The notes under the pieces: generated by a model
The model's database searches: none
Told to the model about the DNA's origin: nothing
What the model saw: only the letters and a program-made list of their open reading frames with translations
Made by a program: the position numbers and the translations under genes
Part shown: positions 3,545 through 24,590 of the stretch, one piece after another
Layout of the letters: each line of letters opens with the position of its first letter
Numbering within the stretch: position 1 is the first letter of the stretch
Assembly: GCA_030824585.1 (NCBI GenBank)
Contig: JAVBXM010000260.1
Location: 1 to 36,076, forward strand
Length of the DNA stretch: 36,076 bases
Direction of reading: 5' to 3'
Source: Phaeospirillum sp.
GTDB lineage: Bacteria; Pseudomonadota; Alphaproteobacteria; Rhodospirillales; Magnetospirillaceae

Positions 3545-3560
3545 TTTACGGGACTGTAAA
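3545..3560. promoter_or_regulatory. Palindromic operator 2 (putative TetR site)
   Basis: TTTACGGGACTGTAAA repeats the TTTAC-N6-GTAAA pattern of operator 1 and shares 13 of 16 bases with its core. Two matching dyads in tandem at a divergent promoter are typical of autoregulating TetR proteins. It lies 111 bp ahead of the GTG start at 3672. Confidence 0.65.
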
Positions 3561-3671: not shown

Positions 3672-4115
3672 GTGAAAGCCGAAGAGCTCGTAGGCAAAGT
3701 CTATGCCCCGTTCACCGTCGACGTGGAGAAGGGCCGCCTGCGGCTTTTCGCCAAGGCCATCGGTGAATCCAATCCGGTCTACCTGGACGACGACGCGGCG
3801 CGAAAGGCAGGCTATGCCTCGCTTCCGGCCCCGCCGACCTTCGCCTTCTCCATCGCCATGGACGCCGAGCAGCCGTTCAAGGTCCTCGAGGATCTGGGGG
3901 TGGACAAGACCCGCTCCATGCACGGCGAGCAGATTTTCGACTACATCGAGCCCATCTGCGCCGGCGACACCGTCACCGGCGTGCAGCGGGTGGTCGAGAC
4001 CTTCGAGAAGAAGGGCGGCGCCATGCGTTTCATCGTCACGGAAACGCTGCTGAAAAACCAGCACACCCGGCCGGTGGCGAATTTACGGACCGTAATAATC
4101 GTCCGTCAGGGGTAG
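3672..4115 (+). CDS. MaoC-type dehydratase, N-terminal-like hot-dog protein
   Basis: This 147-residue protein resembles the N-terminal half of MaoC-like (FAS1-type) dehydratases: VGKVYAPFTVDVEKGRLRLFAKAIGESNPVYLDDDAARKAG, then LPAPPTFAF and HGEQIFDYIEPICAGDTV. In such two-part hydratases this half lacks the Asp/His pair and pairs with a catalytic MaoC half, here the next gene 10 bp downstream. Together they probably hydrate the cinnamoyl-CoA-type double bond, giving a 3-hydroxyacyl-CoA. The start is GTG at 3672, supported by GAGGGAGGA immediately upstream. It is the first gene of the operon, behind the tandem operators. Partnership with the next gene is inferred from order and family. Confidence 0.82.
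   Translation: MKAEELVGKVYAPFTVDVEKGRLRLFAKAIGESNPVYLDDDAARKAGYASLPAPPTFAFSIAMDAEQPFKVLEDLGVDKTRSMHGEQIFDYIEPICAGDTVTGVQRVVETFEKKGGAMRFIVTETLLKNQHTRPVANLRTVIIVRQG
4083..4095. promoter_or_regulatory. Operator-like dyad inside the end of the hydratase gene
   Basis: TTACGGaCCGTAA is a perfect 6+6 dyad with one central base, within the last codons of the upstream gene and about 30 bp before the next start. It resembles the two upstream operators but has a 5-bp rather than a 6-bp centre between TTTAC and GTAA. It may be a weak third site or chance. Confidence 0.3.
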
Positions 4116-4125
4116 GGAGATGACC

Positions 4126-4545
4126 ATGAGCATCCGCTTCGCCGACATCGCGGTGGGGGACAGCATCCCCGAACTCGCCAAGCCGCCCATCGACCGCACC
4201 CAACTGGCCCTGTTCGCCGGTGCCTCGGGCGATCACAACCCCATCCACCTGGATGACGAGCAGGCCCGCTCGGGCGGGCTGCCCGGCGTGATCGCCCACG
4301 GCATGCTGTCCATGGCCTTTCTGGGACAGGTGCTGACCGGCTGGGTGCCGCAATCGGCCGTCCGGTCGTTCTCGGCCCGCTTCACCGCCATGGCCTTCCC
4401 CGGCGACACCATCACCTGCAAGGGGGTGGTCACCGCCAAGTCCGAGGAGAACGGCGAGATGGTGGTCGACCTCGACCTTTCCGCCGTCAACCAGGACGGC
4501 AAGCAGACCCTGGCCGGATCGGCCCGCATCGCCCTGCCCGCCTAG
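4126..4545 (+). CDS. MaoC-family (R)-specific enoyl-CoA hydratase
   Basis: This 139-residue hot-dog protein carries the hydratase motif AGASGDHNPIHLDD with the catalytic Asp36 and His41, followed by GLPGVIAHGMLSMAF. The family adds water to 2-enoyl-CoA to give the (R)-3-hydroxyacyl-CoA. In this operon the substrate would be 2-aminocinnamoyl-CoA. I prefer the ATG at 4126 to the one at 4120 because AGGGAG at 4114-4119 then has 6 bp of spacing; with 4120 there is none. It follows the non-catalytic MaoC half and precedes the thiolase, forming the beta-oxidation end of the route with the SDR at 19133. Confidence 0.87.
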   Translation: MSIRFADIAVGDSIPELAKPPIDRTQLALFAGASGDHNPIHLDDEQARSGGLPGVIAHGMLSMAFLGQVLTGWVPQSAVRSFSARFTAMAFPGDTITCKGVVTAKSEENGEMVVDLDLSAVNQDGKQTLAGSARIALPA

Positions 4546-4556
4546 GAGCGCCCCAC

Positions 4557-5768
4557 ATGGCCTATCTCGCCGAGATTCCCTATGGCTGCTACTGGTCCAC
4601 CCCCTTCGCCAAGTGGATGGGCAGCCTGGCGCGGCTCCATTCCCTGGAATTCGCCGCCCACGTCGCCAAGGCCGAACTGGCCCGGCGCGACATCCCGGCC
4701 GGAGGATTCGATTTCGGCGTGCTGGGCACCTCGGTGCCGCAGAAGCATTGCTTCTACGGCGCGCCCTGGCTGATGGGCATGATCGGCGCGCCCCAGGCCG
4801 GCGGCCCCTCGGTGTCCCAGGCCTGCGCCACCGGATTGCGCTGCCTGCTGACGGCAGCGACGGAGATTCAGGCCGGGCTGGCCACCATGGCCCTGTCGGC
4901 CACCTGCGACCGCACCTCCAACGGGCCGCACCTCTACTACCCCGATCCCGGCGCCCCCGGCGGCACCGGCACCGCCGAGGATTGGGTGATGCAGAACTTC
5001 TCGTACGATCCGTTCACCGCCAAGTCCATGCTGGCCACCGCCGAGAACGTGGCCGCCCGCTACAAGATCGACACCAGGCGCCAGCACGACGTGGTGCTGC
5101 GGCGCGAGGAGCAGTACGCCGCCGCCCTGGCCGACGACTGCGCCTTCCTCAAGCGCTTCATGACCCTGCCCTTCGAGGTCCCCACCCCCAATTTCCGCAA
5201 GACCGCCTCGGTCATGGCGGCCGACGAGGGCGTCACCCGCTCGACCCCGGAAGGGCTGGCGGCCCTGAAGCCGGTGATGGAAGGCGGCACCGTGACCTTC
5301 GGCGCCCAGACCCATCCGGCCGACGGCAACGCCTGCCTGATCGTCGCCACCCCGGGCAAGGCCCGCGAACTGTCCCGCGATCCCAAGATCAGGGTGCGGC
5401 TGAAGGGCTTCGGCCTGGAAAGGGTCGAACCCGCCTTCATGCCCCGCGCCACCGTCCCGGCGGCCAAGCGCGCCCTGGAGCAGGCCGGCATCGGCATCGA
5501 CAAGGTCAAGGCGGTCAAGCTGCACAATCCCTTCACGGTCAACGACATCGTCTTCGCCGAGGAAACCGGCACCAAGATCGCCGAGATCAACAATTACGGC
5601 TCGTCGCTGGTCTGGGGCCATCCCCAGGCGCCCATGGGCACCCGGAGCGTGATCGAACTGATCGAGGAACTGGTGATCCGCGGCGGCGGCTACGGCCTGT
5701 TTTCCGGCTGCGCCGCCGGCGACACCGCCATGGCCGTGGTGATCCTGGTCGATGAACGTCCGGCCTGA
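4557..5768 (+). CDS. Thiolase-family acyl-CoA acetyltransferase
   Basis: This 403-residue protein has thiolase landmarks: nucleophilic Cys90 in SVSQACATGLR, His323 in HNPFTVND, His355 in GHPQAPMG, and Cys385 in SGCAAGDTAMA in place of the usual CxGGG. It would cleave the 3-oxoacyl-CoA, here 2-aminobenzoylacetyl-CoA, with CoA to give 2-aminobenzoyl-CoA and acetyl-CoA. The altered C-terminal motif (CAAGD) puts it with the less standard, aryl-type thiolases rather than with acetoacetyl-CoA thiolases. AGGAG overlaps the stop of the preceding gene and sets the start at 4557. It corresponds by position to the thiolase beginning the Aromatoleum iaa order. Confidence 0.85.
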   Translation: MAYLAEIPYGCYWSTPFAKWMGSLARLHSLEFAAHVAKAELARRDIPAGGFDFGVLGTSVPQKHCFYGAPWLMGMIGAPQAGGPSVSQACATGLRCLLTAATEIQAGLATMALSATCDRTSNGPHLYYPDPGAPGGTGTAEDWVMQNFSYDPFTAKSMLATAENVAARYKIDTRRQHDVVLRREEQYAAALADDCAFLKRFMTLPFEVPTPNFRKTASVMAADEGVTRSTPEGLAALKPVMEGGTVTFGAQTHPADGNACLIVATPGKARELSRDPKIRVRLKGFGLERVEPAFMPRATVPAAKRALEQAGIGIDKVKAVKLHNPFTVNDIVFAEETGTKIAEINNYGSSLVWGHPQAPMGTRSVIELIEELVIRGGGYGLFSGCAAGDTAMAVVILVDERPA

Positions 5769-5789
5769 GCCCAACGGGGAAGCACGACC

Positions 5790-7316
5790 ATGAACCTGTC
5801 CGATTGGATCGAACGCTGGGCCGGATTTGCCGCCGACAAGCCGGCGCTGCGCTATGAGGGCGCCGAGCTGACCTATGGCGGCCTGGCCCGCCATATCGCC
5901 CGCATCGCCGGCGCGCTGTCCGGCACCCTGGGCATCCGCCGGGGCGAGCGGGTGGCGTGGCTGGGCCTCAACAACGCCGAGAGCATCGCCCTGCTGTTCG
6001 CCTGCGCCCGCATCGGCGCCATCTTCACTCCGCTCAACTGGCGCCTGACCCCGGTGGAGCATCTGGCGCTGATGACCGATTCCGAGCCGTCCCTCTTGGT
6101 GGTCGAGCCCGAATTCGCCGATGCCATCGCCGCCAAGCGGGTGGTGATCACCGGTCCCCGGCTGGCCTGCACCGGCGGCCCGCGCTCCGGCTGGCTGGAC
6201 TGGGATTCCATGGTCGAGGCCGCGCCGCTGCTGAGCGGCGGCGAGGGCCGCGCCGATGACCCGCTGCTGCTGTGCTACACCTCGGGCACCACCGGCCAGC
6301 CCAAGGGCGCCCTCCACACCCAGGACGGCATGCTGTGGAACGCCGTCAACAGCACCCAGATGCACGACCTGACCAGCCAGGACCGGGTGCTGACCACCCT
6401 GCCCATCTTCCACGTGGGCGGGCTGAACATCCAGACCATGCCGGCGCTCCATGCCGGCGCCACCGTCACCCTGCACCGCCGCTTCGACGCCGCCACCACG
6501 CTGGCCACCCTGGTGGAGGAGCGCACCACCCTGGCGGTGCTGGTTCCCACCCAGCTCGACCTGCTGCTGGCCGAGCCGGGCTGGGCGACCGCCGATTTGT
6601 CGAGCCTGCGCTGCATCACCACCGGCTCGACCATCATCCCCACCGGGCTGGTGCGCACCATCCAGGCGCGCGGCATTCCGGTGATCCAGATCTTCGGCTC
6701 GACCGAGACCGGCCCGGTGGCGGTGTTCCAGCGGGTCGCCGACAGCGGCAAGGTCGGCGTCGCCGGCCATTGCGCCGTCCATTGCGAGATGCGGCTGGTG
6801 GACGGCGACGGCAACGACGTGGCGCCCGGCCGGTCGGGCGAGGTGCTGATCAAGGGCCGCAACATCATGATCGGCTACTGGCGCGACGAGGTGGCCACCC
6901 GCGCCGCGCTGAAGGACGGCTGGTTCGCCACCGGCGACATCGGCCACCTGGACGATGACGGCGCCCTGATCATCGACGACCGCAAGAAGGAAATGATCAT
7001 CTCGGGGGGCGAGAACATCTTCCCCGCCGCCCTGGAAGCCATCCTGGGCGAGTGCCCCGACATCGAGGAGGCCGCCGTGGTCGGCCGCCCCGACGAGCGC
7101 TGGGGCGAGATCCCGGTGGCGGTGGTGGTGCCCCGGCCGGGCACCCGCCTGACCGAGGAGGGGGTTCTCGCCCTCTTCAAGGACAAGGTCGCCCGCTACA
7201 AGCACCCGCGCGCCGTGATCTTCACCGACCACCTGCCCCGCACCAGCATCGGCAAGCTGGTCAAGGCCGACATCCGCAAGCTGGCGCGGCAGACGCCGCC
7301 CTCTTCCTCCATCTAA
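5790..7316 (+). CDS. iaaB: Acyl-CoA ligase, probable indoleacetate-CoA ligase
   Basis: This 508-residue AMP-forming acyl-CoA synthetase has the P-loop LLCYTSGTTGQPKGA near residue 160, the FGSTETG motif, GWFATGDIGHLDDDG and the C-terminal hinge DRKKEMIISGGENIFP with a lysine near the end (TSIGKLVK). It forms an acyl-adenylate and then the CoA thioester in the cytoplasm. The Aromatoleum homologue in the same gene position, IaaB, was reported to be a specific indoleacetate-CoA ligase acting first in the pathway. By context this protein would activate indoleacetate; (2-aminophenyl)succinate or another aryl acid is the alternative. It lies 21 bp after the thiolase and 18 bp before the hydantoinase subunit. 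Confidence 0.85.
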   Translation: MNLSDWIERWAGFAADKPALRYEGAELTYGGLARHIARIAGALSGTLGIRRGERVAWLGLNNAESIALLFACARIGAIFTPLNWRLTPVEHLALMTDSEPSLLVVEPEFADAIAAKRVVITGPRLACTGGPRSGWLDWDSMVEAAPLLSGGEGRADDPLLLCYTSGTTGQPKGALHTQDGMLWNAVNSTQMHDLTSQDRVLTTLPIFHVGGLNIQTMPALHAGATVTLHRRFDAATTLATLVEERTTLAVLVPTQLDLLLAEPGWATADLSSLRCITTGSTIIPTGLVRTIQARGIPVIQIFGSTETGPVAVFQRVADSGKVGVAGHCAVHCEMRLVDGDGNDVAPGRSGEVLIKGRNIMIGYWRDEVATRAALKDGWFATGDIGHLDDDGALIIDDRKKEMIISGGENIFPAALEAILGECPDIEEAAVVGRPDERWGEIPVAVVVPRPGTRLTEEGVLALFKDKVARYKHPRAVIFTDHLPRTSIGKLVKADIRKLARQTPPSSSI

Positions 7317-7334
7317 GCCCGGAGACCCGTTCCC

Positions 7335-9446
7335 ATGACCACAAAGATCGGTATCGACGTCGGCGGCACCTTCACCGACTTCTTCGTCGCCGAGGCCGGG
7401 TGCGAACCGAGGATTCACAAGGTCCTGTCCACCCCCCATGATCCCTCCATCGCGGTGCTCACCGGCCTGGAGGAGATCGCCGCCAGCCGCAAGCCCGCCA
7501 TGGCCCTGGCCGACTACGTGCGGACCATCGACACCATCGTCCACGGCACCACGGTGACCACCAACGCCACCTTGACCCATACCGGGGCCAAGTGCGGGCT
7601 GATCACCACCGAGGGCGTGCGCGATGCCCTGGAAATGCGCAGAGGCATCCGCGAGGAGCAGTACAACAACCGCTACACCAACGTGCCGCCGCTGGTGGAA
7701 CGCTACCTGCGCGCCGGAACCGGCGGACGCATGGACCGCGCGGGGCGGGAGGTGGCGCCCCTGGCCCTGGCCGACATCGAAGCCGCCATCGCGCTGTTCA
7801 AGCGCGAAAAGGTCGAGGCGGTGGCCATCTGCTTCATGAACGCCTTCGCCAACCCGGCCCACGAGCGTCAGGCGGCCGAGCTGGTGCGCAAACATCTGCC
7901 CGAGGCCTACCTGACCGTCTCCACCGACCTGCTGCCGTCCATCCGCTTCTACGACCGCATCAGCACCACGGCGCTGAACTCCTATGTGGGGCCCAAGCTC
8001 AGCCGCTATCTCGACCAGTTGACCGGACGGCTGAAGGAGGTCGGCTTCGACGGATTGCTGCTGATCACCCAGTCCAACGGCGGCGTCATGGCCCCTGAAG
8101 TGGCGCGCGAGAAGGCGGCGCTGACCCTGCTGTCGGGACCGGCGGGCGGCCCCGGCGCCGGCCTGGCCTATGCCGCCGTCCACGGCCAGAACCGCTGCAT
8201 CACCACCGACATGGGCGGCACCAGCTTCGAGGCCTCCATGGCCGTCGACACCCCGATCATGGTCAATGACGGAGAGATCGCGCGGCACCGCATCGCCCTG
8301 CCCATGCTGGGCATCCACACCATCGGGGCCGGCGGCGGCTCCATCGGCTGGATCGACGAGGGCGGCATGCTGCGCATGGGGCCGCAATCGGCGGGCGCCG
8401 ATCCCGGCCCGGCCTGCTACGGCAAGGGGGGCACGAAGCCGACCTCCACCGACGCCAACCTGGTGCTGGGCTACCTCAACCCCGGCTTCTTCGCCGGCGG
8501 CCGCATGAGCCTGGACCTGGCCGCCGCCGAACGCGCCATCGCCGAGCACGTCGCCAAGCCGCTGGGCCTCTCGGTGGTCGAGGCGGCGGCGGGCATGTAC
8601 CGCATCATCTGCAACAACATGGCCCAGGGCGTCCGCGAGGTGACCATCAAGCGCGGCTTCGACCCGCGCGAGTTCCCGATGATCGTCGCCGGCGGCGCCG
8701 GCCCCATCCATTCCTGCCTGATCGCCGACGAGCTGGAGATGCCCTTCCAGATCGTGCCGCGCGAATCCTCGGTGCTGTGCGCCTACGGCATGCTGATGGG
8801 CGACATCCGGCACGACTTCGTGCGCACCTTCGTCTCGCGCCTCGACAGCCTGGACTGGCCCAGGCTCAAGGCGGTGATCGCCGAGATGGCCAAGGACGGC
8901 GACGACCTCCTGGACAGCGAGCGCATCTCCGCCGACCGCCGCCGCGTCGCCGTCAAGCTGGATTGCCGCTACCTCAAGCAATACCACGAGGTGTCGTTCG
9001 AGGTGCCCATGGCAAGCATCGAGGCGGGCGACACTGCCGCGATCACCCGGCTGTTCCATGCCGAGCACAACCGGCTCTACGGCTACTCGCTGGAGGAGCA
9101 GAAGGTCCCGGCCGAGATCATCAACGTGCGGCTGCAGGCGGTGGGCGTCACCGACAAGCCCTCGGGCCGAGCCGAGCCCTATGCCGGGCCGGACGGCTCG
9201 GCGGCCGTCAAGGGCGAGCGCATGGTCTACGTCCCCGAGGACAAGGCCTTCCGCTCGGTCCCCGTCTATGACGGCCACAAGCTGAAGCACGGCAACCGGG
9301 TCGCCGGCCCGGCCATGATCGAGGAAATCACCACCGCCATCTTCGTCTCGGCCTCGTATGACGGGGTCTGCGACCGCACCGGCTCGTTCGCGCTGTACCG
9401 CAAGGGGCGCGAGGACCTGGTGGCCAACATCCTGAAGGGGGCCTGA
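7335..9446 (+). CDS. Hydantoinase A-like ATPase subunit (ring-opening hydrolase)
   Basis: This 703-residue protein belongs to the HyuA / acetone carboxylase beta group with an ASKHA ATPase fold: phosphate loop IGIDVGGTFTDFFV at residues 5-18, HGTTVTTNATL near residue 63, and TDMGGTSFE and IGAGGGSIGWID near residues 294 and 332. Such enzymes use ATP to open cyclic amides or to activate substrates for carboxylation. Together with the next gene it would open the lactam of 2-oxoindoleacetate or its CoA ester to (2-aminophenyl)succinate. In Aromatoleum the equivalent pair is called IaaC/IaaE. The acetone carboxylase gamma subunit is absent, which favours hydrolysis over carboxylation. Confidence 0.87.
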   Translation: MTTKIGIDVGGTFTDFFVAEAGCEPRIHKVLSTPHDPSIAVLTGLEEIAASRKPAMALADYVRTIDTIVHGTTVTTNATLTHTGAKCGLITTEGVRDALEMRRGIREEQYNNRYTNVPPLVERYLRAGTGGRMDRAGREVAPLALADIEAAIALFKREKVEAVAICFMNAFANPAHERQAAELVRKHLPEAYLTVSTDLLPSIRFYDRISTTALNSYVGPKLSRYLDQLTGRLKEVGFDGLLLITQSNGGVMAPEVAREKAALTLLSGPAGGPGAGLAYAAVHGQNRCITTDMGGTSFEASMAVDTPIMVNDGEIARHRIALPMLGIHTIGAGGGSIGWIDEGGMLRMGPQSAGADPGPACYGKGGTKPTSTDANLVLGYLNPGFFAGGRMSLDLAAAERAIAEHVAKPLGLSVVEAAAGMYRIICNNMAQGVREVTIKRGFDPREFPMIVAGGAGPIHSCLIADELEMPFQIVPRESSVLCAYGMLMGDIRHDFVRTFVSRLDSLDWPRLKAVIAEMAKDGDDLLDSERISADRRRVAVKLDCRYLKQYHEVSFEVPMASIEAGDTAAITRLFHAEHNRLYGYSLEEQKVPAEIINVRLQAVGVTDKPSGRAEPYAGPDGSAAVKGERMVYVPEDKAFRSVPVYDGHKLKHGNRVAGPAMIEEITTAIFVSASYDGVCDRTGSFALYRKGREDLVANILKGA

Positions 9447-9451
9447 ACGCC

Positions 9452-11128
9452 ATGACCGCCGTCGATCCCATCCTGCTGTCGGTTTACGCCCGCACCTTCA
9501 AGTCGATCACCGACGAGATGAGCATCTCGGTGCAAAAGACCACCCGCTCGCCCATCCTGTGCGAGGCCAAGGACTTCGTCACCGGGCTCTACGACGCCGA
9601 AGGCAACATGCTGGAGCAGACCGAGAACCTGCCGATCCTGGCGTTCTCGCTGGCGCCGGTCTGCAAGTACATCCTGAAATACTTCGAGGGCGACATTCAT
9701 CCCGGCGACGTCATCTTCCACAACGACGTCTTCTCCATGGGCAACCAGAACAACGACGTCGCCGTCTACAAGCCCGTCTTCCAGGGCGAGACCCTGGTGG
9801 GCTGGACCGCCGTCAAGGGCCACCAGGCCGATATCGGCGGCAACGTGCCCGGCGGCTACAACCCCAACGCCAAGGAAGTATGGCAGGAGGCGCTGCGCAT
9901 CCCGCCGGTCAAGATCTATGACCGGGGCGTGTTCCGCAAGGACGTCTGGGACCTGATCTTCGCCAATATCCGCCTCGACATCGTCCAGCACGACATGCGC
10001 GCCCAGATGGGTGCCTGCACGGTGGGCGAGCGCCGCTTCCTGGAACTGCTCTCCAAGTACGGCCTGCCGAGCTTCAGGGCCCACAAGACGGCGCTGTTCG
10101 ACGCCACGCGGCGGATGATGGAGGCCGAGATCGCCAAGATTCCCAACGGCCGCTATTCCGGCGAGGGCATGGTCTATTACGACGGCCACCATGTGGGCAG
10201 CCAGTTCACCATCCGCGTCGACATCACCGTCGAGGACCGCAAGGTGCGTTTCGACTACACCCGCACCGACCCGCAGACCGACGGCTTCGTCAACGGCACC
10301 TTCACCTCGTCGGCCTCGGCCACGGTGCTGACCCTGCTGCAGATGGTCAACCCCGACATCCCCCACAACGAGGGCATGATCCAGCCCATCGAGATCATCA
10401 TCCCCGAGGGCACCATCCTCAACGCCAGCTACCCCAAGGCCACTACCTTCGGCAACCATCTGTGCCCGCCCAACGCCGACGCCATCATCCGCGCCCTGGC
10501 CCCGGTGATCCCCGACCGGGTCACCGCCGGCTGGAACAACCTCCTGTGCTCGCTCACCACCGGCATCGACCCGGAAAAGGGCGAGAAGTACGTGGATATC
10601 GGCTTCATGGGGCTCAAGGGCGGTTCGGGCGCCATGAACGGCACCGACGGCTACGACCATATCGGCATGATCGACGCCTCGGGCGGCCTCCTCGACCAGG
10701 ATTACGAGATGTTCGAGCAGACCACGCCGCATCTGCTGATCAAGCACGAATACCTCGTCGACTCGGCCGGCCCCGGTCAGTGGCGCGGCGGCCTGGGGGT
10801 GGAGACCATCTTCACCATCGGGTCCGACGACACCCAACTGGTGACCTTCGGCGACGGCGATTTCGAACCGGCCTTCGGCCTGTTCGGCGGCGGCGAGGGA
10901 ACGCTCAACCTGATCGAGCTGACCTATCCCGACGGCACGAGCGTGGTGCCGCGCAACAAGGACCTGATCACCGGCGTGCCCAAGGGCACCCGCTACCGCC
11001 AGTTGGCGGGCGGCGGCGGCGGCTATGGCCCGGCGGCCAAGCGCGACCGGGCGCTGCTGGGCCGCGAGGTCAGGGACGGCGTGATTTCGCCCGATGCGGC
11101 ACGCTCCGCCTATGGCTGGGAAGGCTGA
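9452..11128 (+). CDS. Hydantoinase B-like subunit
   Basis: This 558-residue HyuB / acetone carboxylase alpha-like protein follows its partner after 5 bp. Recognisable blocks are the N-terminal TDEMSISVQKTTRSPILCEAKDF, HNDVFSMGNQNNDVAV (residues 90-105), GHQADIGGNVPGGYNP (123-138) and the Gly-rich end LAGGGGGYGPAAKRD. In relatives the metal-site motif reads NDPYxGGTHxxD; here the aligned His is Gln99, while Asp102 and the second-motif His124 and Asp127 are kept. The pair is predicted to hydrolyse the oxindole ring in the cytoplasm, using ATP. The Gln change may tune or remove one metal ligand, so the exact chemistry is open. Confidence 0.87.
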   Translation: MTAVDPILLSVYARTFKSITDEMSISVQKTTRSPILCEAKDFVTGLYDAEGNMLEQTENLPILAFSLAPVCKYILKYFEGDIHPGDVIFHNDVFSMGNQNNDVAVYKPVFQGETLVGWTAVKGHQADIGGNVPGGYNPNAKEVWQEALRIPPVKIYDRGVFRKDVWDLIFANIRLDIVQHDMRAQMGACTVGERRFLELLSKYGLPSFRAHKTALFDATRRMMEAEIAKIPNGRYSGEGMVYYDGHHVGSQFTIRVDITVEDRKVRFDYTRTDPQTDGFVNGTFTSSASATVLTLLQMVNPDIPHNEGMIQPIEIIIPEGTILNASYPKATTFGNHLCPPNADAIIRALAPVIPDRVTAGWNNLLCSLTTGIDPEKGEKYVDIGFMGLKGGSGAMNGTDGYDHIGMIDASGGLLDQDYEMFEQTTPHLLIKHEYLVDSAGPGQWRGGLGVETIFTIGSDDTQLVTFGDGDFEPAFGLFGGGEGTLNLIELTYPDGTSVVPRNKDLITGVPKGTRYRQLAGGGGGYGPAAKRDRALLGREVRDGVISPDAARSAYGWEG

Positions 11129-11133
11129 GCGGC

Positions 11134-12267
11134 ATGGATTTCGATCTCTCCGAGGACCAGCGCGCCATCCAGGAGACCTTCGCCCGCTTCGTCGACCGCG
11201 AGGTGGCTCCGGCGGCGGCGGCGCTGGACGAGGCCCACCAGTTCCCCCGCGAACTGTTCGCCAAGTTGGGGGAACTGGGCTTCTTCGCCATGCGCTATCC
11301 CGAGACGGTGGGCGGCGCCGGGGTGGACCTCTCCACCTTCTGCCTGGCCCTGGCCGAAATCGCCCGCGGCTCCCTGTCGCTCGCCGGGGCGGCGGCCATG
11401 CAGGCGCTGATGGGCACCAACTTCCTGTGGCTGCTGGGCAACGAGGACATCCGCCGCCGCCTGCTGGAACCAGCGCTTCGGGGCGAGAAGATCGGCGCCA
11501 TCTGCATGACCGAGCCCAATGCCGGCTCGGACCTGGGCGGCATCGCCACCACGGCGGTCAAGGTGGACGGCGGCTGGAAGATCAGCGGCCAGAAGACCTG
11601 GATCACCTCGGCGCCGCTGGCCGATTTCTTCACGGTCTTCGCCCGCGCCGGTGCCGAGAAAAAGCTGACCATCTTCCTGGTGGAGAAGGGCTCGGCGGGC
11701 CTCACAATCGGCCGCTCCATCGAGAAGATGGGGGTGTGGGCGCTGCCCACCTCGGAAGTCGCCTTCGACGAATGCTTCGTCCCCGACTCCCACATGCTGA
11801 GCAAGGAGGTGGGCGACGGCGAGGGGCATCTGCGCAAGATCCTCTCGGAAATCCGCATCATCACCGGGGCCATGGCCAACGGCGTCGCCCGCGCCGCCCT
11901 GGCCGAGGCGGTCCGCTATTCCACCGAACGCAAGCAGTTCGGCAAGCCCATCGCCGCCTTCCAAGGCGTGTCCTTCAAGCTGGCCGAGATGGCCACCGAC
12001 CTGGAAGCCGCCGAGCAACTGGTCCGCTACGCCGCCTGGCTCAAGGACGCCGGGCGGCCCCACGCCCAGCAGGCGGCCATGGCCAAGCTGTTCGCCACCG
12101 AGGCGGCGGCCAGGACCTGCGACCAGGCGGCCCGCGTGCTGGCCTCCTACGGCTTCGCCATGGAGTACCCGGTACAGCGCTATCTGCGCGACATCCGCTT
12201 CACCCTGATCGGGGGAGGCACCAGCGAAATCCTCAAGCTCATCATCGGCAAGGAGCTGACGTCATGA
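11134..12267 (+). CDS. iaaF: Acyl-CoA dehydrogenase, probable decarboxylating (benzylmalonyl-CoA type)
   Basis: This 377-residue acyl-CoA dehydrogenase has the family blocks ICMTEPNAGSDLGGIATTA, ISGQKTWITSA and RKQFGKPIAAFQG. At the C-terminus the usual catalytic stretch YEGTSEI reads GGGTSEI (residues 360-366), so the Glu base is Gly361. The alternative Glu of the isovaleryl-CoA dehydrogenase type is also not in place; the segment reads LSEIRIITGA. The Aromatoleum counterpart IaaF oxidises and decarboxylates benzylmalonyl-CoA to cinnamoyl-CoA, where loss of the 2-carboxylate replaces proton abstraction, so no base is needed. The missing Glu fits that. The start at 11134 lies 5 bp after the hydantoinase B stop; the stop overlaps the next start (ATGA). 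Confidence 0.85.
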   Translation: MDFDLSEDQRAIQETFARFVDREVAPAAAALDEAHQFPRELFAKLGELGFFAMRYPETVGGAGVDLSTFCLALAEIARGSLSLAGAAAMQALMGTNFLWLLGNEDIRRRLLEPALRGEKIGAICMTEPNAGSDLGGIATTAVKVDGGWKISGQKTWITSAPLADFFTVFARAGAEKKLTIFLVEKGSAGLTIGRSIEKMGVWALPTSEVAFDECFVPDSHMLSKEVGDGEGHLRKILSEIRIITGAMANGVARAALAEAVRYSTERKQFGKPIAAFQGVSFKLAEMATDLEAAEQLVRYAAWLKDAGRPHAQQAAMAKLFATEAAARTCDQAARVLASYGFAMEYPVQRYLRDIRFTLIGGGTSEILKLIIGKELTS

Positions 12268-14263: not shown

Positions 14264-14279
14264 CCCCCCGAGGAAACGC

Positions 14280-15134
14280 ATGACCGCCATCGAACGCTAC
14301 CTCGCCCCCGCCGACCTGGACTCCGCGCTTGCCGCCCTGGCGGGCGGCAATGCCACCGTCCTGGCCGGCGGCACCGACCTCATGCCGCAAATCAATGCCG
14401 GCAAGGTCGCCTTCCGCCCCATCCTGCTCAACATCCGCCGCATTCCCGATCTCCGCGCGGTCGAGGTGGGCCAGGGCCGCATCACCATCGGCGCGCTGGT
14501 CACCATCACCGAGCTGAAGGACAACCCGGTCATCGCCAAGGCGGTGCCGCTGCTGGCCGAGGCCGCCGACCACTTCGCCTCGGACCAGGTGCGCAACATG
14601 GGCACCATCGGCGGCAACGTGGCCAACGCCTCGCCGGCCGGCGACACCCTGGTGCCGCTGCTGGTGCTGGACGCCCAGGTGGAACTGGCCTCGGCCACCG
14701 GACGCCGTTCCGTGCCCATGGCCGAGTTCTTCACCGGTCCGGGCCGCAGCGTACGCCGCCCAGACGAGCTGATCACCGGCCTGTCGCTGCCCCTGCCCCG
14801 GCTGCGCACCGTGTCGCGCTTCGTCAAGTTCGGGACAAGGCCGGCGCTCGACATCTCGGCGGTGTCCATCGGCTTTTCCGCCACCCTGGACAGCGGACGG
14901 CTGTCCGACGTGCGGGTGGCGTTCGGCGCGGTGGGGCCGACGCCCATGCGCGGCCGCGCCACCGAGGCCGTGCTGGAGGGCGCCCCCCTCGACGCCGGGC
15001 TGATCGCCAAGGCGGCGGCCACCGCCCAGGACGAGGTGAAGCCCATCGACGACCTGCGGGCCAGCGCCTGGTATCGCCGCGAACTGATCCACAACCTCCT
15101 GGGAAAGGTGCTGAGCGATGTCGTCTCTCGTTGA
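14280..15134 (+). CDS. FAD-binding medium subunit of molybdenum dehydrogenase
   Basis: This 284-residue protein is the CoxM/XdhB-type FAD subunit: AGGTDLMPQINAGK near residue 30 and the flavin loop RNMGTIGGNVANASPAGD near residue 108, then a C-terminal CO-dehydrogenase flavoprotein domain. It passes electrons from the 2Fe-2S subunit to NAD or another acceptor. The protein contains no cysteine at all, so it lacks the 4Fe-4S insertion that distinguishes the reductive enzyme 4-hydroxybenzoyl-CoA reductase; this argues for oxidative hydroxylation. The start at 14280 has GAGGAAA upstream. Its end overlaps the next gene by 17 bp. Confidence 0.9.
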   Translation: MTAIERYLAPADLDSALAALAGGNATVLAGGTDLMPQINAGKVAFRPILLNIRRIPDLRAVEVGQGRITIGALVTITELKDNPVIAKAVPLLAEAADHFASDQVRNMGTIGGNVANASPAGDTLVPLLVLDAQVELASATGRRSVPMAEFFTGPGRSVRRPDELITGLSLPLPRLRTVSRFVKFGTRPALDISAVSIGFSATLDSGRLSDVRVAFGAVGPTPMRGRATEAVLEGAPLDAGLIAKAAATAQDEVKPIDDLRASAWYRRELIHNLLGKVLSDVVSR

Positions 15135-15600
15135 GATCTCCTGTGTCGTCAACGGCACGCCCACCCGGCTGGCCGTGCCGCCCCAAACCAGCGCGCTCGC
15201 CCTGCTGCGCGACCACCTGGGCCTTTCCGGCACCAAGTACGGCTGCGGCGAGGGTGAGTGCGGCGCCTGCACCATCTTGGTGGACGGCGTCTCGGTCAAT
15301 TCCTGCCTGATGTTCGCCGTGGATTTCGACGGCCGCACCATCACCACCATCGAGGGGCTGGCGGTGGACCGCGCCTCCGACCCGCTGCGCCAGGCCTTCG
15401 TCGACAAGGGCGGCGTCCAGTGCGGCTTCTGCACCCCGGGCATGGTGGTGCAATCCCGCCACGTGCTGGACAAGCACCCCCACGCCGGCCCCGAGGAGGT
15501 CAAGCGCGGCCTCGAGGGCAATCTGTGCCGCTGCACCGGCTACAAGAAGATCGTCGAGGCGGTGGTCACCGCCGCCGCCGCCCAGTCAGCCGCCGAGTAA
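15118..15600 (+). CDS. 2Fe-2S small subunit of molybdenum dehydrogenase
   Basis: This 160-residue protein carries both iron-sulfur motifs of the xanthine oxidase family: a plant-type ferredoxin cluster with Cys43, Cys48, Cys51 and Cys63 (YGCGEGECGACTILVDG) and the helical cluster with Cys102, Cys105, Cys137 and Cys139 (CGFCTPGM and NLCRCTGY). It relays electrons from the molybdenum centre to FAD. It has no twin-arginine signal, so the complex is cytoplasmic. The start at 15118 lies inside the FAD-subunit gene, consistent with coupled translation. Confidence 0.93.
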   Translation: MSSLVEISCVVNGTPTRLAVPPQTSALALLRDHLGLSGTKYGCGEGECGACTILVDGVSVNSCLMFAVDFDGRTITTIEGLAVDRASDPLRQAFVDKGGVQCGFCTPGMVVQSRHVLDKHPHAGPEEVKRGLEGNLCRCTGYKKIVEAVVTAAAAQSAAE

Positions 15601-15612
15601 GGACCCGACGAG

Positions 15613-17910
15613 ATGAACGCTCCCCAGCACGCCAGCCTGATCGGCCAGCGCATCCCCAAGATGGACGCGCCGGAAAAGGTCGCGGGCAAGACCCGCTACA
15701 TCCAGGACCTCAACCTGCCGGGCCAGCTTTACGGCCTGATTCTCCGCACCGAGCGGGTTCATGCCCGCATCGTCTCCATCGACACCTCGGCGGCCAAGGC
15801 GCTGCCGGGCGTGCGCGCCGTGCTGACCGCCGCCGACGTTCCCATCCATCCCATCGGCGTCAACAAGGACAACCCGCCGCTCAAGGGCGACAAGGTGCGC
15901 TGCGAGCGCGACGAGGTCGCCGCCGTGGCCGCCGACAGCCTGGAGATCGCCCAGGCCGCCCTGAAGCTGATCACGGTGGAATACGAGGACCTGCCCCCCC
16001 TCTTCGACCCCCGCGATTCCATCAAGCCCGGCGCCCCGGTCATCCACGAGGCCAAGCCCGACAACGTGGCCATGGCCTTCGACTACGCCCACGGCGACGT
16101 GGAGCAGGGCGAGGCGGACTCCGACGTGGTGGTGGAGGACGAATTCACCCTGCACCGGGTGACCCATTGCTGCATGGGCGTGTCCGGGGTGATCGCCGAT
16201 TTCGAGCCGGTCTCGGGCAACCTGACGCTCTACTCCAACACCCAGGTGCCGTTCCTGCACAAGCGCGAGTTCGCCGAGGTGCTGGGCATGGACCCGTCGC
16301 GCATCCGCATCATCCAGCCGCCCATCGGCGGCGGCTTCGGCTCCAAGCTCGACATCTATCCCTTCGAGCCCATCGCCGTCTATCTCGCCCGGGCCACCCG
16401 CCGGCCGGTCAAGCTGATCTTCACCCGTGAGGAGGAGTTCATCGCCTCCCCCACCCGCCAGCCGGCCATCATCCGCCTGCGCTCGGGGGCCAAGCGGGAC
16501 GGCACGCTGACCTTCCGCACCGTCGACGTGCTGCTGGACAACGGCGGCTACACCTCGTGGGGCGCCACCATCCCCTTCGTGATGATGCAGACCTTCAGCT
16601 CGCTCTACCGGGTGCCCCACTGCCGCTACCACACCAAGGCGGTCTACACCAACAACCCCTTCGCCGGGTCGTTTCGCGGCTATGGCAACCTGCAGGCCAC
16701 CTTCGCCATCGAGCAGCAGATGGACAAGCTGGCCGACGCGCTGGGCATGGACGCCTACCAGTTCCGCCTCAAGAACGCCCAGGAAGCCGGCGAGATCACC
16801 GGCCAGGGCATGCACTTCAAGACCTGCGGCTTCAAGGACTGCCTGGAAACCGCCGCCGGACGCTCAGGGTTCGCCGAGAAGCGCAAGGCGCTGGGCGCCG
16901 CCAAGGGGCTGACCGGCATCCGCCGGGGCGTCGGCATGGCCTCCATGCTGCACGTGGGCGGCGGAGCCAAGATCTATCCGTCCGACGGCTGCGGCACCAT
17001 CCTCAAGCTCGACGATTTCGGCCACGTCACCATCATGACCGGGGCGTCGGAGATCGGTCAGGGCTCGGAGACCGTGCTGGCCCAGTTGGTATGCGAGGAA
17101 CTGGGCGTGCCCATGAGCGCGGTGACGGTGGTCAATAACGACACCGACATCACGCCGTGGGACGTGGGCGTGCACGCCAGCCGCACCACCTTCATCGCCG
17201 GCAATTCGGCCATCGGCGCGGCGCGCAAGGCCAAGGACAAGATCCTGGCCGCCGCCTCCACCGTGTCGAACATGAGGGCCGAGGAGCTGGACCTCAAGGG
17301 CGGCAATATCGTCCGCGCCGCCGATGGCGAGAAGGTCATGCCGCTGGCCAAGATGCTGCGGCAGTTGCACTTCTCGGACAAGGCCGAGCTGGTGATGACC
17401 ACCAATTACTACGAGCCCCCCTCGGTCCACCAGGACAAGGGCTTCAAGGGCGACGTCTCGGCCGCCTACGCCTGGGCCACCCAGGTGGTGGAGGTGGAAG
17501 TGGACACCGACACCGGCATCGTCAGGCTGCTCAAGGTGTGGGCCGCCCACGATGTGGGCCGCGTGCTGAACGAGATGGGCATTGAGGGCCAGATCGAGGG
17601 CGGCATCATCATGGGCCAGGGCTATGCCCTGTGCGAGGACATGCCGGTGGTGGACGGCCATCTGGTCAACCCGGCCTTCCGCGACTACAAGCTGATCACC
17701 GCGCCGGAAATCCCCGAGATGGACATCCAGTTCATCGAGACCATGGACGGCGAAGGCCCCCAGGGCGCCAAGGGCGTCGGCGAGGCGCCGTCCATCTGCA
17801 TGGCCGCCGCGGTGGCCAACGCCATCGAGAACGCCACCGGCGTACGCATCACCAGCCTGCCCTTCACTCCCGAGCGGGTCTACTCGGCGCTCAAGGGCAA
17901 GCTGCAATGA
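15613..17910 (+). CDS. Molybdopterin large subunit of xanthine-oxidase-family dehydrogenase
   Basis: This 765-residue protein has the aldehyde oxidase/xanthine dehydrogenase a/b hammerhead at about residues 20-130 and a molybdopterin-binding region: PIGGGFGSK (237-245), [30 protein letters not shown] and the catalytic glutamate Glu724 in [10 protein letters not shown]. With the preceding two subunits it forms an enzyme that inserts a water-derived hydroxyl next to a ring nitrogen or at an activated carbon, without O2. In the iaa scheme it hydroxylates C2 of the indole ring of indoleacetate or its CoA ester. Relatives include 4-hydroxybenzoyl-CoA reductase and quinoline-type oxidoreductases; substrate cannot be read from sequence. 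The stop overlaps the next start by ATGA. Confidence 0.9.
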
Positions 17911-19106
17911 AGCCGCGCGTCGTCCTGTCCATGGAACAGGCGCTGTCGCTGCCCTATGCGACCTTGCGCTTCGTCCATCTGGGCTGGCGGGTGATCCGTA
18001 TCGAATCCTTCGGTACAGGACCCGGCCTGCCGGGCGATCCCAACCGCTATATCGGCTCGGTGGTGGCCGACGACGACCGCCGCTCCTACTTTGTCGCCCC
18101 CAATGTGGGCAAGGAGGCGGTGGCCATCAACCTCAAGGAGCCCAAGGGCCACGAGGTGCTGCGCCAGCTGGTCCGCTCGCTCGACGCCGACGTGTTCTGC
18201 TCCAACACCCTGCCGTCGCGCTATGGGCAACTGGGCATCGACTACGAGACGCTGTCGGCGGCCAAGCCCGACCTGATCTGGGCGGGCATCTCGGCCATGG
18301 GGCCGGACTACCCCGACGTGCCGGGCTACGACCCGGCGCTGCAGGCCATGGCCGGCTACATGGAACTGACCGGCGAGACCAACGGCCCGCCCACCCTGGC
18401 CGGCGTGCCGATCATCGACCTGAAAGCCGGGGACGAGGTCTATGCCGGGGTGTGCCTGGCCCTGGCCGAGCGCGCCGAGACCGGCAAAGGCTCGCGCATC
18501 GACGTCTCCATGCTGCAGGCGGCGGCGTCGTGGCTGATCACCACCCTGCCGCTGGTGGATTTCGGCTGCGATCCCATCGAGATCACGCGGTGCGGCAACG
18601 AGCACCGCAAGTTCATCCCCACCAACGCCTATCCCACCAGGGACGGCTACATCTTCGTCGCCATCGGTTCGGACGTGCAGTGGCGGCGCCTCACCGAGCT
18701 GCCGCGCTTCGCCTCCGTGGGCAAGACGGGGCGCGAGACCAACCAGGGACGCCACGCCGACCGCGAGGCCATCCAGGCCGACATGCGGGCGGTGACGTCG
18801 GCCCACACCACCGCCGAACTGGCCGGCGACTTCCGCAAGGCCACCATCCCCAACGCCCCCATCAACGACATCAACCAGGTGCGCGCCATGCCCGCCCTGG
18901 CCGACAAGCTGACCGCCACCCGCCTGCCCGACGGTCGCCGGGTGCGCATGCAGCCCATGGCGGTGGACCTGGCCGGAAGGAACGGGGATTTCCCCTTCCC
19001 CGCCCATTACGGCGAACACACCCGCGCGGTGCTGGCTCAGGCCGGCATCCAGGGCGGCGATTACGACGACCTCGCCCGGTCGGGCATCGTGCCGGAATCG
19101 GCTTAA
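17907..19106 (+). CDS. iaaL: Class III (CaiB/BaiF) CoA-transferase, phenylsuccinyl-CoA-type
   Basis: This 399-residue protein belongs to the family III CoA-transferases. Visible marks are [21 protein letters not shown] near residue 70, [17 protein letters not shown], and the active-site Asp171 in [16 protein letters not shown], the residue that forms the anhydride and glutamyl/aspartyl-CoA intermediates in this family. The Aromatoleum homologue IaaL transfers CoA among C4 dicarboxylates such as succinate and phenylsuccinate. Here it would move CoA to the other carboxyl of (2-aminophenyl)succinate so that the mutase can act. It overlaps the molybdenum subunit gene by ATGA. Confidence 0.85.
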
Positions 19107-19132
19107 TCAACAAAAACCCGGGAGGACACATC

Positions 19133-19963
19133 ATGAGCAAGCTGAACGGCAAGGTGGCGCTGGTTACCGGATCGGGACGCGGCATCGGCCAGGCCATCGC
19201 CCTGAAGCTGGCCCGCGAAGGCGCCAAGGTGGTGATCAACGACCTGGACGAGGGCCCGGCGGCCGAGACCGTGGCCATGATCAAGGCCCTGGGCTCGGAC
19301 GCCCTGGCCGTGGTGGGCGACGTCACCGCCAAGGATTTCGGCGACCGCATCGTCGCCGCCACCCTGGAAGGCTTCGGCCGCCTGGACATCATCGTCAACA
19401 ACGCCGGCTATCCCTGGGACGGGGTGATCCAGAAGGTCAGCGACGAGCAGTGGTACGCCATGCTCGACGTCCATGCCACGGCGCCCTTCCGGGTGCTGCG
19501 CGCCGCCTCGGACTACATCCGCTCGGCCACCAAGGCGGAAAAGGAGAAGGGCGAGGTGGTGGCCCGCAAGGTGGTCAACGTCTCGTCCATGGGCGGCCTG
19601 TGCGGCAATCCCGGCCAGATCGCCTATGGCGCCGGCAAGTCGGCCCTGGTGGGCATCACCAAGACCATGGCCAAGGAATGGGGACGCTACGGCGTCAACG
19701 TCAATTGCGTCGCCTTCGGCTGGATCAAGACCCGCATGACCAAGCCGGCCGGGTCGGGCCAGGAGGAAAGCCACAAGACCCACGGCATCGAGATCAAGAT
19801 GGGGGTCAACCCCGACCTGCTCGACACCATGAGCAAGATGATCCCGCTGGGCCGCGGCGGCACCCCCGAGGAAGCCGCCGGCGCCGTCTATCTGCTGTGT
19901 TTGCCTGAAGCCGACTACATCACCGGCGAAGTGGTGATGTGCACCGGCGGCTTCATCATGTGA
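19133..19963 (+). CDS. Short-chain dehydrogenase, probable 3-hydroxyacyl-CoA dehydrogenase
   Basis: This 276-residue SDR has the Rossmann motif TGSGRGIG at 12-19, NNAGY near residue 87, the catalytic VSS serine near residue 152, and Tyr165/Lys169 in AYGAGKSAL. The insert XKAEKEKGEVVARK before the VSS strand resembles FabG-like 3-oxoacyl reductases acting on CoA esters. It would oxidise the (R)-3-hydroxyacyl-CoA made by the MaoC hydratase, using NAD(P), ahead of thiolysis. The ATG at 19133 follows GGGAGGA; longer upstream frames lack the motif and overlap the CoA-transferase. It is the last gene of the operon, followed directly by a terminator hairpin. Confidence 0.88.
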   Translation: MSKLNGKVALVTGSGRGIGQAIALKLAREGAKVVINDLDEGPAAETVAMIKALGSDALAVVGDVTAKDFGDRIVAATLEGFGRLDIIVNNAGYPWDGVIQKVSDEQWYAMLDVHATAPFRVLRAASDYIRSATKAEKEKGEVVARKVVNVSSMGGLCGNPGQIAYGAGKSALVGITKTMAKEWGRYGVNVNCVAFGWIKTRMTKPAGSGQEESHKTHGIEIKMGVNPDLLDTMSKMIPLGRGGTPEEAAGAVYLLCLPEADYITGEVVMCTGGFIM

Positions 19964-19965
19964 TG

Positions 19966-20003
19966 CCAGGCCCCGATGAGCAGGACTCATCGGGGCCTGG
20001 TTA
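19966..20003 (+). terminator. Strong hairpin closing the degradation operon
   Basis: CCAGGCCCCGATGAG (19966-19980) pairs perfectly over 15 bp with CTCATCGGGGCCTGG (19986-20000) around a CAGGA loop, 2 bp after the SDR stop. Only a short T-pair follows, so it may also protect the 3' end. Its strength and position mark the operon end. Confidence 0.75.
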
Positions 20004-20143
20004 GGCGCAACGCGCCGCGCGCCCGAGGGCGATCCCGGTGATCGGTTCCGGTCGCCGGGATATGGAGTAAAGGCCCAAGACCTGAAAAAGGCATGGCCGA
20101 GGACGAGGACCGAGAAATGAAATAAACACCACGGGAGGGAGAA

Positions 20144-21304
20144 ATGTCATTTCTGTCTAGGAAACGGATATTGCTAGGAACCGCCATCGTCATGATGGCG
20201 GCCTGGACGGGGACCGCTCGGGCCATCGAGCCGATCAAGATCGGCGCGGTGCTGAGCATTACCGGTCCGGCGTCGCTGTTGGGCGACCCCGAAGCCAAGG
20301 TCCTCAAGATGTACTCCGACCAGCTGAACAAGGATGGCGGGGTGCTCGGCCGCAAGATCGACCTGATCGTCTACGACGACGAAGGCAAGGCCGACAAGAC
20401 CTCTACCCTGGTCAAGCGCCTGATCGAGGCCGACAACGTCGACCTGATCATCGGACCGACGCTGACCGGCAACACCATGGCGGCCATTCCGCTGGCCGAG
20501 CGGGCGGAAATTCCGCTGATCTCCATCGCCGGCGGCGGCGTCATCGTCGACCCGGTCAAGAAGTGGGTGTTCAAGACCCCCCATACCGACAAGATGGCCA
20601 CCGAGAAGGTGTTCCTCGACATGAAGAAGCGGGGCATCACCAGCATCGCCCTGATCTACGGCAATGACGGCTATGGCAAGTCGGCCAGCACCGCCACCAA
20701 GGAACTGGCCCCGCTCCACGGCATGAACATCGTCGCCGACGAAACCTATTTCGCCTCCGACGCCGACATGACGCCCCAGCTCACCAAGATCAAGAACACC
20801 CCCGGCGTCCAGGCCGTATTCAACCTGGGCTTCGGGCAATCGGCGGCCGTGGTTACCAAGAACGCCAAGCAGCTCAACCTGGGACTGCCCTACTACGAAT
20901 CCCACGGGGTCAATTCCAAGAACTTCATCCAACTGGCGGGCATCGATGCCACCGAAGGGGTTCGCCTGCCCGCCTCGGCGGTGCTGGTGGCCGAGGCCCT
21001 GCCGGCCGACGATCCGCAGAAGGCGGTGACCATGAAGTTCAAGGGCGAGACCGAGGCGGCGTTCAAGACCGAGGTCTCGACCTATGGCGGCCATGCCTAC
21101 GACGCGCTGCAGATCGCCCTGAGCGCCATCATGCGGGCCGGTTCGGTCGACAAGCACAAGGTCAGGAATGAAATCGAGAAGACATCGGGCTATGTGGGAA
21201 CCAGCGGCATCGTCAACATGTCGCCCACCAACCATCTCGGCCTGGATCTCAACTCCCTGAAGCTGCTCGAGATCAAGAACGGGCAGTGGACCCTGGCCCA
21301 GTAA
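20144..21304 (+). CDS. ABC transporter periplasmic binding protein (LivJ/branched-chain type)
   Basis: This 386-residue protein has a signal peptide (basic SRKR, hydrophobic core, likely cleavage after TARA at residue 27) and a type I periplasmic binding fold: IKIGAVLSITGPASLLGDPEAK, then LIIGPTLTGNTMAAIPLAE and GNDGYGKSASTATKE. The family feeds high-affinity uptake of amino acids and aromatic acids. No permease or ATPase genes are in the window, so it must work with components elsewhere. The iaa cluster of Aromatoleum also contains a lone binding protein, so uptake of indoleacetate or a related aryl acid is a fair inference. GGGAGGGAG precedes the ATG. Confidence 0.88.
   Translation: MSFLSRKRILLGTAIVMMAAWTGTARAIEPIKIGAVLSITGPASLLGDPEAKVLKMYSDQLNKDGGVLGRKIDLIVYDDEGKADKTSTLVKRLIEADNVDLIIGPTLTGNTMAAIPLAERAEIPLISIAGGGVIVDPVKKWVFKTPHTDKMATEKVFLDMKKRGITSIALIYGNDGYGKSASTATKELAPLHGMNIVADETYFASDADMTPQLTKIKNTPGVQAVFNLGFGQSAAVVTKNAKQLNLGLPYYESHGVNSKNFIQLAGIDATEGVRLPASAVLVAEALPADDPQKAVTMKFKGETEAAFKTEVSTYGGHAYDALQIALSAIMRAGSVDKHKVRNEIEKTSGYVGTSGIVNMSPTNHLGLDLNSLKLLEIKNGQWTLAQ

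Positions 21305-24513: not shown

Positions 24514-24590
<77 letters not shown>

Follow-up and report, generated by a model that had tools for sequence, protein, structure and literature searches.

In Aromatoleum, the anaerobic breakdown of the auxin indole-3-acetate is encoded by the iaa genes (iaaABCDEFGHIJKLMPQR; PMC8360864, PMC9613470). The aerobic iac/iad auxin clusters, which share by inference the substrate of the locus described here, consist of different genes with mostly MarR regulators, and the paper that covers them terms the iaa genes highly divergent and sets them aside (PMC9613470). Here we compare with these systems an iaa-type operon on a 36,076-nucleotide stretch of Phaeospirillum sp. 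DNA (contig JAVBXM010000260.1 of assembly GCA_030824585.1), called the window below, which is one contig (C229) among the 262 of the 4.94-Mb host genome. Fifteen co-directional genes form a 17.6-kb run at 3672-21304 of its + strand, and this operon very probably encodes a CoA-dependent, oxygen-independent degradation of indole-3-acetate to 2-aminobenzoyl-CoA, acetyl-CoA and CO2 in which one module has been replaced.

The operon type has been published, with an alphaproteobacterial case among the known ones: PMC8360864 lists an orthologue of the dehydrogenase IaaF in Rhodopseudomonas palustris, encoded with other iaa genes, so the probable alphaproteobacterial host, which an earlier note on this DNA had counted among its distinguishing features, is not new. 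Among the literature matches listed, we saw no Magnetospirillum iaa operon and no version with MaoC proteins and a short-chain dehydrogenase/reductase (SDR); Ebenau-Jehle 2012 and Schuhle 2016 lie outside that search, and the excerpts of PMC4207700 and PMC11231019 name Magnetospirillum and indoleacetate solely in legends and references. The interesting part is the variant arrangement of module and regulator: the upper pathway is conserved, including its most diagnostic enzymes, and other parts stand in for the beta-oxidation pair and the regulator.

Match to the Aromatoleum iaa operon

The operon comprises the following genes (percentages are amino acid identities; EbN1 denotes the presumed EbN1 genome).

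3672 to 4115, + strand: MaoC1, HadA-like partner subunit whose catalytic positions are degenerate (PF13452; HadA is the top NCBIfam model, below cut-off)
4120 to 4545, + strand: MaoC2, HadB-like and the catalytic subunit, predicted to be an (R)-specific hydratase (PF01575; HadB is the top NCBIfam model, below cut-off)
4557 to 5768, + strand: thiolase, in the position of IaaA, predicted to yield 2-aminobenzoyl-CoA and acetyl-CoA (68% to EbN1)
5790 to 7316, + strand: AMP-forming indoleacetate-CoA ligase, IaaB orthologue by reciprocal best match (53% to EbN1)
7335 to 9446, + strand: HyuA, hydantoinase/oxoprolinase A-type, predicted ATP-dependent lactam hydrolase (74% to EbN1)
9452 to 11128, + strand: HyuB, hydantoinase B-type subunit (PF02538, 481.8 bits; 82% to EbN1)
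11134 to 12267, + strand: putative decarboxylating (2-aminobenzyl)malonyl-CoA dehydrogenase, IaaF orthologue (GGG at residues 360-362; 76% to EbN1)
12264 to 12659, + strand: putative (2-aminophenyl)succinyl-CoA mutase, B12-binding subunit, IaaG (TIGR00640, 131.3 bits; 74% to EbN1)
12656 to 14263, + strand: putative (2-aminophenyl)succinyl-CoA mutase, catalytic subunit, IaaH (TIGR00641, 605.7 bits; 78% to EbN1)
14280 to 15134, + strand: Mo hydroxylase FAD subunit (58% to EbN1)
15118 to 15600, + strand: Mo hydroxylase 2Fe-2S subunit (64% to EbN1)
15613 to 17910, + strand: Mo hydroxylase catalytic subunit, xanthine-dehydrogenase-type, predicted to hydroxylate indoleacetyl-CoA at C2 (74% to EbN1)
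17907 to 19106, + strand: class III CoA-transferase, IaaL orthologue, predicted to shift CoA between the carboxyls of aminophenylsuccinate (71% to KB740)
19133 to 19963, + strand: SDR, predicted (R)-3-hydroxyacyl-CoA dehydrogenase (PF13561; YxxxK and Ser motif)
20144 to 21304, + strand: orphan periplasmic binding protein of the branched-chain type, in the position of IaaM (PF13458; 30% to the EbN1 counterpart)

From MaoC1 through the SDR gene, neighbours overlap or are separated by at most 26 bases; a gap of 180 bases precedes the binding protein gene. All of the genes that the earlier note placed in the run are present on the + strand at the stated coordinates, and its reading of the run as iaa-like in content and order holds, since 12 genes are colinear with the operons of A. 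evansii KB740 and, presumably, A. aromaticum EbN1 (11 at 53-82% identity, the binding protein at ~30%). The published iaaF primers (PMC8360864) served to find the EbN1 operon: both match genome G802 exactly, which we presume to be EbN1; they also match G804, presumed A. buckelii. The CoA-transferase was compared with KB740 because the presumed EbN1 copy is truncated where the fetched DNA ends. From thiolase to CoA-transferase, the window, KB740 (locus L048) and L132/L133 share one gene order; the agreement with KB740 and presumed EbN1 is therefore not due to chance. The sole differences in order from Aromatoleum are the MaoC pair before the thiolase and the SDR between the CoA-transferase and the binding protein. 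Just two operon proteins, both mutase subunits, passed an NCBIfam cut-off, and did so at subfamily-domain level; because curated families alone failed to name the proteins, the assignment rests on orthology and gene order.

Protein searches against strains with the pathway, which the earlier note had proposed as a check, favour its reading. With the window ligase as query, the top match is an iaa-type ligase both in the presumed EbN1 genome (576.8 bits against 212.2 for the runner-up) and in KB740 (two copies, 586.6 and 572.9 bits, against 236.1). Searched back against the host genome, the EbN1 ligase has the window ligase as its top match (574.8 bits against 293.6), and by this reciprocal best match the window ligase is assigned as the IaaB orthologue. 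The dehydrogenase, the mutase subunits and the Mo catalytic subunit are 74-78% identical to presumed EbN1 and stand in the same order. The dehydrogenase also carries, at residues 360-362, the GGG that replaces the usual YEG and defines the IaaF subclass (PMC8360864), kept in 77/77 aligned rows including the window.

The mutase bears on a quite different proposal, that the operon serves another chemistry using a B12 mutase and a Mo hydroxylase, for example 2-hydroxyisobutyrate or caprolactam degradation. The top-scoring solved relative of the mutase is indeed 2-hydroxyisobutyryl-CoA mutase (540 bits), and the closest curated models of HyuAB are caprolactamases (684 and 387 bits). However, both caprolactamase models fall below their 1000-bit cut-offs, and at the places of Ile and Gln in 2-hydroxyisobutyryl-CoA mutase the window enzyme has Tyr 64 and Arg 182, as does human methylmalonyl-CoA mutase; both residues are kept in 71/71 rows. 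In such mutases, the Tyr and Arg bind the free carboxylate of the substrate. The two residues are thus consistent with a dicarboxylic acyl-CoA, for instance (2-aminophenyl)succinyl-CoA, as substrate. The mutase is 77-78% identical to Aromatoleum, against 38-49% for other mutases of 60 related genomes, which places it with the iaa type and not with methylmalonyl-CoA mutase. Together with the full set being colinear with the iaa operon at 53-82% identity, these residues largely refute a 2-hydroxyisobutyrate or caprolactam operon, which we regard as very improbable.

Some points count against the indoleacetate assignment: the binding protein is only ~30% and the ligase 53% identical to presumed EbN1, and the physiological electron acceptor of IaaF is not known even in EbN1 (PMC8360864). 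The first two would suit a different entry substrate that passes through the same internal steps, a further indolic or an oxindole acid such as a ring-substituted indoleacetate: conservation is among the lowest in the proteins that meet the substrate first (53% for the ligase, 58% for the Mo FAD subunit, ~30% for the binding protein). Yet the tendency recurs between EbN1 and KB740, each of them reported to degrade indoleacetate: across ten genes compared between the two, the ligase (77%) and the FAD subunit (82%) are the least conserved, with HyuB at 95%. The low identities in the window thus look like an effect of rate, which weakens low ligase conservation as a sign of another substrate; moreover, the neighbouring 461-2713 gene product, discussed below, resembles an enzyme for unsubstituted 2-aminobenzoyl-CoA. 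We consider a different entry substrate improbable and retain indole-3-acetate as the likely one.

In the proposed pathway, the binding protein would serve uptake and the ligase activation to indoleacetyl-CoA, which the Mo enzyme would hydroxylate at C2. The hydantoinase-type pair would open the lactam ring at the expense of ATP, and the CoA-transferase would move CoA onto the other carboxyl. The split mutase may then carry out a B12-dependent carbon-skeleton rearrangement to (2-aminobenzyl)malonyl-CoA, and the acyl-CoA dehydrogenase an oxidative decarboxylation to 2-aminocinnamoyl-CoA. The top solved relatives of the binding protein are 3sg0 (153 bits) and 4dqd (149 bits), which we take to be binders of aryl-keto acids. 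Two types of Mo catalytic subunit can be told apart, with 20/62 near-full rows at 54-64% and 42/62 at 70-96% identity to the window. The type does not follow the rest of the operon, as in presumed A. buckelii (57%) versus the EbN1 genome (74%), and L041, L043, L044, L047 and L100 contrast in this with L048, L080 and L132; this subunit may be a second exchangeable module.

Among named organisms, Paramagnetospirillum caucaseum SO-1 has the nearest relative of the operon (HyuB 97%; records very close to the window were possibly omitted). Across 60 related genomes, iaa-type mutases are 76-97% identical to the window and stand apart from all others. They occur in 3/16 other genomes of the genus searched (G010, G016 and G007) and, in even draws at E 1e-170 or better with the host counted each time, in 2/398 genomes of the phylum and 8/385 of the class.

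The MaoC/SDR module and the crotonase/HCDH fusion

In KB740 and EbN1, a gene for a fusion of crotonase and 3-hydroxyacyl-CoA dehydrogenase (HCDH) lies divergent from the operon, behind a TetR gene. From its domains, the gene list of PMC9613470 and the earlier note, we infer that this fusion is IaaP and performs both hydration and dehydrogenation. The window gives no tblastn match at E 1e-3 for the fusion or for the Aromatoleum GntR regulator, the rest of the host genome not having been searched. It holds instead the MaoC pair, the SDR and the thiolase, all inside the operon. Their likely roles lie in the conversion of 2-aminocinnamoyl-CoA to 2-aminobenzoyl-CoA: a MaoC1/MaoC2 heterodimer would hydrate, the SDR would oxidize and the thiolase would cleave to 2-aminobenzoyl-CoA.

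The replacement of the fusion, also put forward in the earlier note, is borne out by a wider survey. A pattern scan of one genome per species (84,980 species) gave 417 stretches with a HyuB relative at E 1e-3; our counts refer to the best 80 of these, all at 80% identity or more, and the other 337 may include other hydantoinases. KB740 is among the 80. Loci from other searches stand outside the counts (L022, L031 to L034 and L132, of which L032 has a MaoC pair), as do L027, which has no operon and a mutase at 49%, and L035 (HyuAB 29-39%; the tree outgroup). The last of these (G702:C60) combines an iaa-type mutase (68%), a GGG dehydrogenase and a CoA-transferase with only distant HyuAB pairs, and no Mo enzyme is in view there; it is perhaps an arylsuccinate pathway of another kind. 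"In view" means within the fetched locus; L044 alone was extended, which raised the MaoC loci from 12 to 13.

The MaoC pair occurs at 13/80 loci and the fusion at 25/80 (21 with both halves, four cut by locus ends), and at none of the 80 do they occur together. In a HyuB tree (88 rows, quick method, computed before the L044 extension and with L044 unlabelled), the module label needs four changes, at least three of them forced by well-supported branches. The fusion locus L038 is sister to the MaoC locus L040, for example, and the betaproteobacterial L084 and L056 have the MaoC pair. The module swap is real and recurrent.

The two MaoC proteins differ in their catalytic positions. MaoC2 keeps both the Asp and the His of the hydratase 2 core in 15/15 rows; in the window, one position departs from the published hydratase 2 motif (Ala for LIVG). 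MaoC1 has Glu, Asp, Ser or Thr at the first position and Tyr, Trp or Phe, once His, at the second; both catalytic residues are present in 0/15 rows. The top PDB matches include solved HadB chains for MaoC2 and HadA chains for MaoC1. The HadAB (3R)-hydroxyacyl-ACP (acyl carrier protein) dehydratase likewise consists of two MaoC-fold proteins, only one with the Asp/His core; the catalytic dyad belongs to HadB, and the binding channel to HadA (PMC4491049). By this analogy, MaoC1 and MaoC2 most likely form one heterodimeric enzyme with a single active site. HadAB acts on ACP, whereas a CoA substrate is expected for the window pair, which scores below the curated HadA and HadB cut-offs. In the SDR, the YxxxK motif and the Ser of the SSM/SIA stretch are kept in 13/13 rows. 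A MaoC hydratase that works with an SDR is expected to have (R) specificity, a crotonase/HCDH fusion (S) specificity. It follows as a prediction that the MaoC/SDR route would run through the (R)-3-hydroxy intermediate and the Aromatoleum fusion through the (S) form.

At 42/80 loci neither module is in view (18 shorter than 21 kb, 24 of 21 kb or more), so other solutions or distant genes must exist, and this counts against the proposed explanation. These loci also leave room for the idea that the MaoC pair and SDR merely flank the operon and serve another pathway, with general beta-oxidation enzymes handling 2-aminocinnamoyl-CoA, as some hosts may use unlinked enzymes. Against this, the MaoC pair immediately precedes the thiolase and the SDR immediately follows the CoA-transferase in distantly related hosts too, the module co-occurs with the fusion at none of the loci surveyed, and it recurs in a second iaa cluster of P. 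caucaseum. We therefore judge mere flanking unlikely and favour a role of the MaoC pair and SDR within the pathway.

The TetR regulator and its candidate operator

A divergent TetR gene lies a short way in front of the operon, and the intervening gap holds two exact palindromes.

2815 to 3450, - strand: TetR-family regulator, predicted repressor of the operon (PF00440, PF17932)
3522 to 3537, no strand: predicted TetR operator 1, TTTACN6GTAAA (palindrome conservation)
3545 to 3560, no strand: predicted TetR operator 2, TTTACN6GTAAA, 23 bp from operator 1 (palindrome conservation)

The suggestion in the earlier note that a TetR stands in for the GntR regulator holds in part. A GntR match is missing from the window, as given above; however, EbN1 has a divergent TetR as well as the GntR gene directly before the thiolase, so Aromatoleum also possesses a TetR. 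That protein is 28% identical to the window TetR over 187 residues, and the window TetR has its own predicted operator. Across the 80 loci, GntR orthologues are found at 51, a window-type TetR at 13, both at none and neither at 16. For the most part, the regulator follows the module: the 13 MaoC loci have TetR ten times, GntR twice and neither in view once, and the 25 fusion loci have GntR 22 times, TetR never and neither in view three times (Fisher p 5e-7, kinship ignored). The coupling is not strict: L074, L097 and L105 have TetR with no MaoC pair in view, and L056 and L084 have GntR with the MaoC pair.

The tandem TTTACN6GTAAA is predicted to be the TetR operator. With up to one mismatch, 0.03 copies would be expected by chance in the whole window. 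At least one exact copy lies in the gap between TetR gene and operon in 14/14 TetR-type relatives (the 13 of the 80 and L022, whose TetR is cut), and a second copy with up to one mismatch follows 22-23 bp on at 8/15 TetR-type loci including the window. No exact copy was found at the 52 GntR loci (51 and L132), nor at any other of the 86 loci. In the host genome, the two window palindromes are the only exact copies; in G016 and G007 every copy is at the TetR-operon gap, and in P. caucaseum two of three are, the third preceding MaoC1 of the second iaa cluster. G026 and G039 have additional copies elsewhere, and 0 to 4 copies occur in each of 13 genomes of the genus that lack the operon. The last figure tells against the motif being rare in itself, and we dropped genome uniqueness as a means of identifying the operator; the argument rests on position and conservation.

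In the model we propose, TetR would repress both divergent transcripts at the tandem palindromes and be released by auxin or an auxin CoA ester. In other alphaproteobacterial iaa clusters (P. caucaseum SO-1, Magnetospirillum sp. SS-4, and Rhodospirillales, Rhodobacteraceae and Hyphomicrobiales metagenome-assembled genomes), the MaoC pair, the TetR gene and the palindrome occupy the same positions, as does the SDR gene where it is in view. The second MaoC-type cluster of P. caucaseum (L026, L145; G010:C38), with its own palindrome, further includes a MeaB-type mutase chaperone, two tandem CoA-transferases, and branched-chain-type permeases with a binding protein.

Proposed fate of 2-aminobenzoyl-CoA and wider meaning

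Behind the TetR gene, on the same strand, lies one further gene that may belong to the pathway.

461 to 2713, - strand: candidate 2-aminobenzoyl-CoA monooxygenase/reductase, N-terminal FAD monooxygenase and C-terminal old yellow enzyme (OYE) domain (NF006101; 750 residues; 101 bp behind TetR)

The protein is a full-length fusion of the two domains. It scores 1173 bits against the bifunctional salicylyl-CoA 5-hydroxylase model NF006101 (cut-off 1078) and, across 744 residues, shares 58% and 57% identity with two proteins of KB740. The 2-aminobenzoyl-CoA monooxygenase/reductase was studied in A. evansii (PMC4539516). We regard the 461-2713 product as a candidate for this enzyme; the model is named for salicylyl-CoA, and only context separates the two activities. 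One KB740 copy is on the iaa operon contig, ~7 kb beyond the operon; the other is ~20 kb from a second iaa-type ligase. Contigs C264 and C266 of KB740 (G800) apparently hold one iaa-type ligase and one monooxygenase/reductase gene each. Among the 80 loci, only P. caucaseum has the gene adjoining the operon within view; in G016 it is distant, and G007 has only a 55% homologue on another contig. The host also encodes a benzoyl-CoA reductase, in a bcrCBAD cluster with four subunits over cut-off, plus a second bcrD. Neither this reductase nor the adjoining gene for the expected end product figured in the earlier note, and both support its reading. 2-Aminobenzoyl-CoA could accordingly pass to the adjoining monooxygenase/reductase with oxygen and to benzoyl-CoA reductase without it.

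Other features of the surroundings were noted. The DNA similarity of the window to the P. caucaseum L140 contig stops at window position 465. In L140, the monooxygenase/reductase is followed by NnrS, a protein of the benzoate-CoA-ligase family (360.6 bits, cut-off 375.25), a paralogue of benzoyl-CoA reductase subunit B and a RidA-type protein. At the other end of the window, ~25150-36076 on the - strand is a prophage-like block with a terminase large subunit (NF033889, 454.9 bits, cut-off 150) and phage-like ORFs to the contig end; a tRNA-Arg (CCT) at 24514-24590 could be its attachment site.

Taken together, we lean modestly towards a pathway with an exchangeable lower half, in which an (R)-type MaoC/SDR cassette and an (S)-type fusion were swapped several times, usually with a change between GntR and TetR. 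The TetR would here sense auxin or its CoA ester, and its operator would drive the upper pathway and, in this host, the oxygen-dependent branch. As far as we found, the biochemistry of anaerobic auxin breakdown comes from Aromatoleum, and the variant represents a differently assembled form in magnetotactic and other Alphaproteobacteria. It predicts a stereochemical switch that one enzyme assay could test, and its TetR with a conserved candidate operator offers a possible oxygen-independent auxin sensor to examine. The gene linkage ties the iaa pathway to the known oxygen-dependent fate of 2-aminobenzoyl-CoA.

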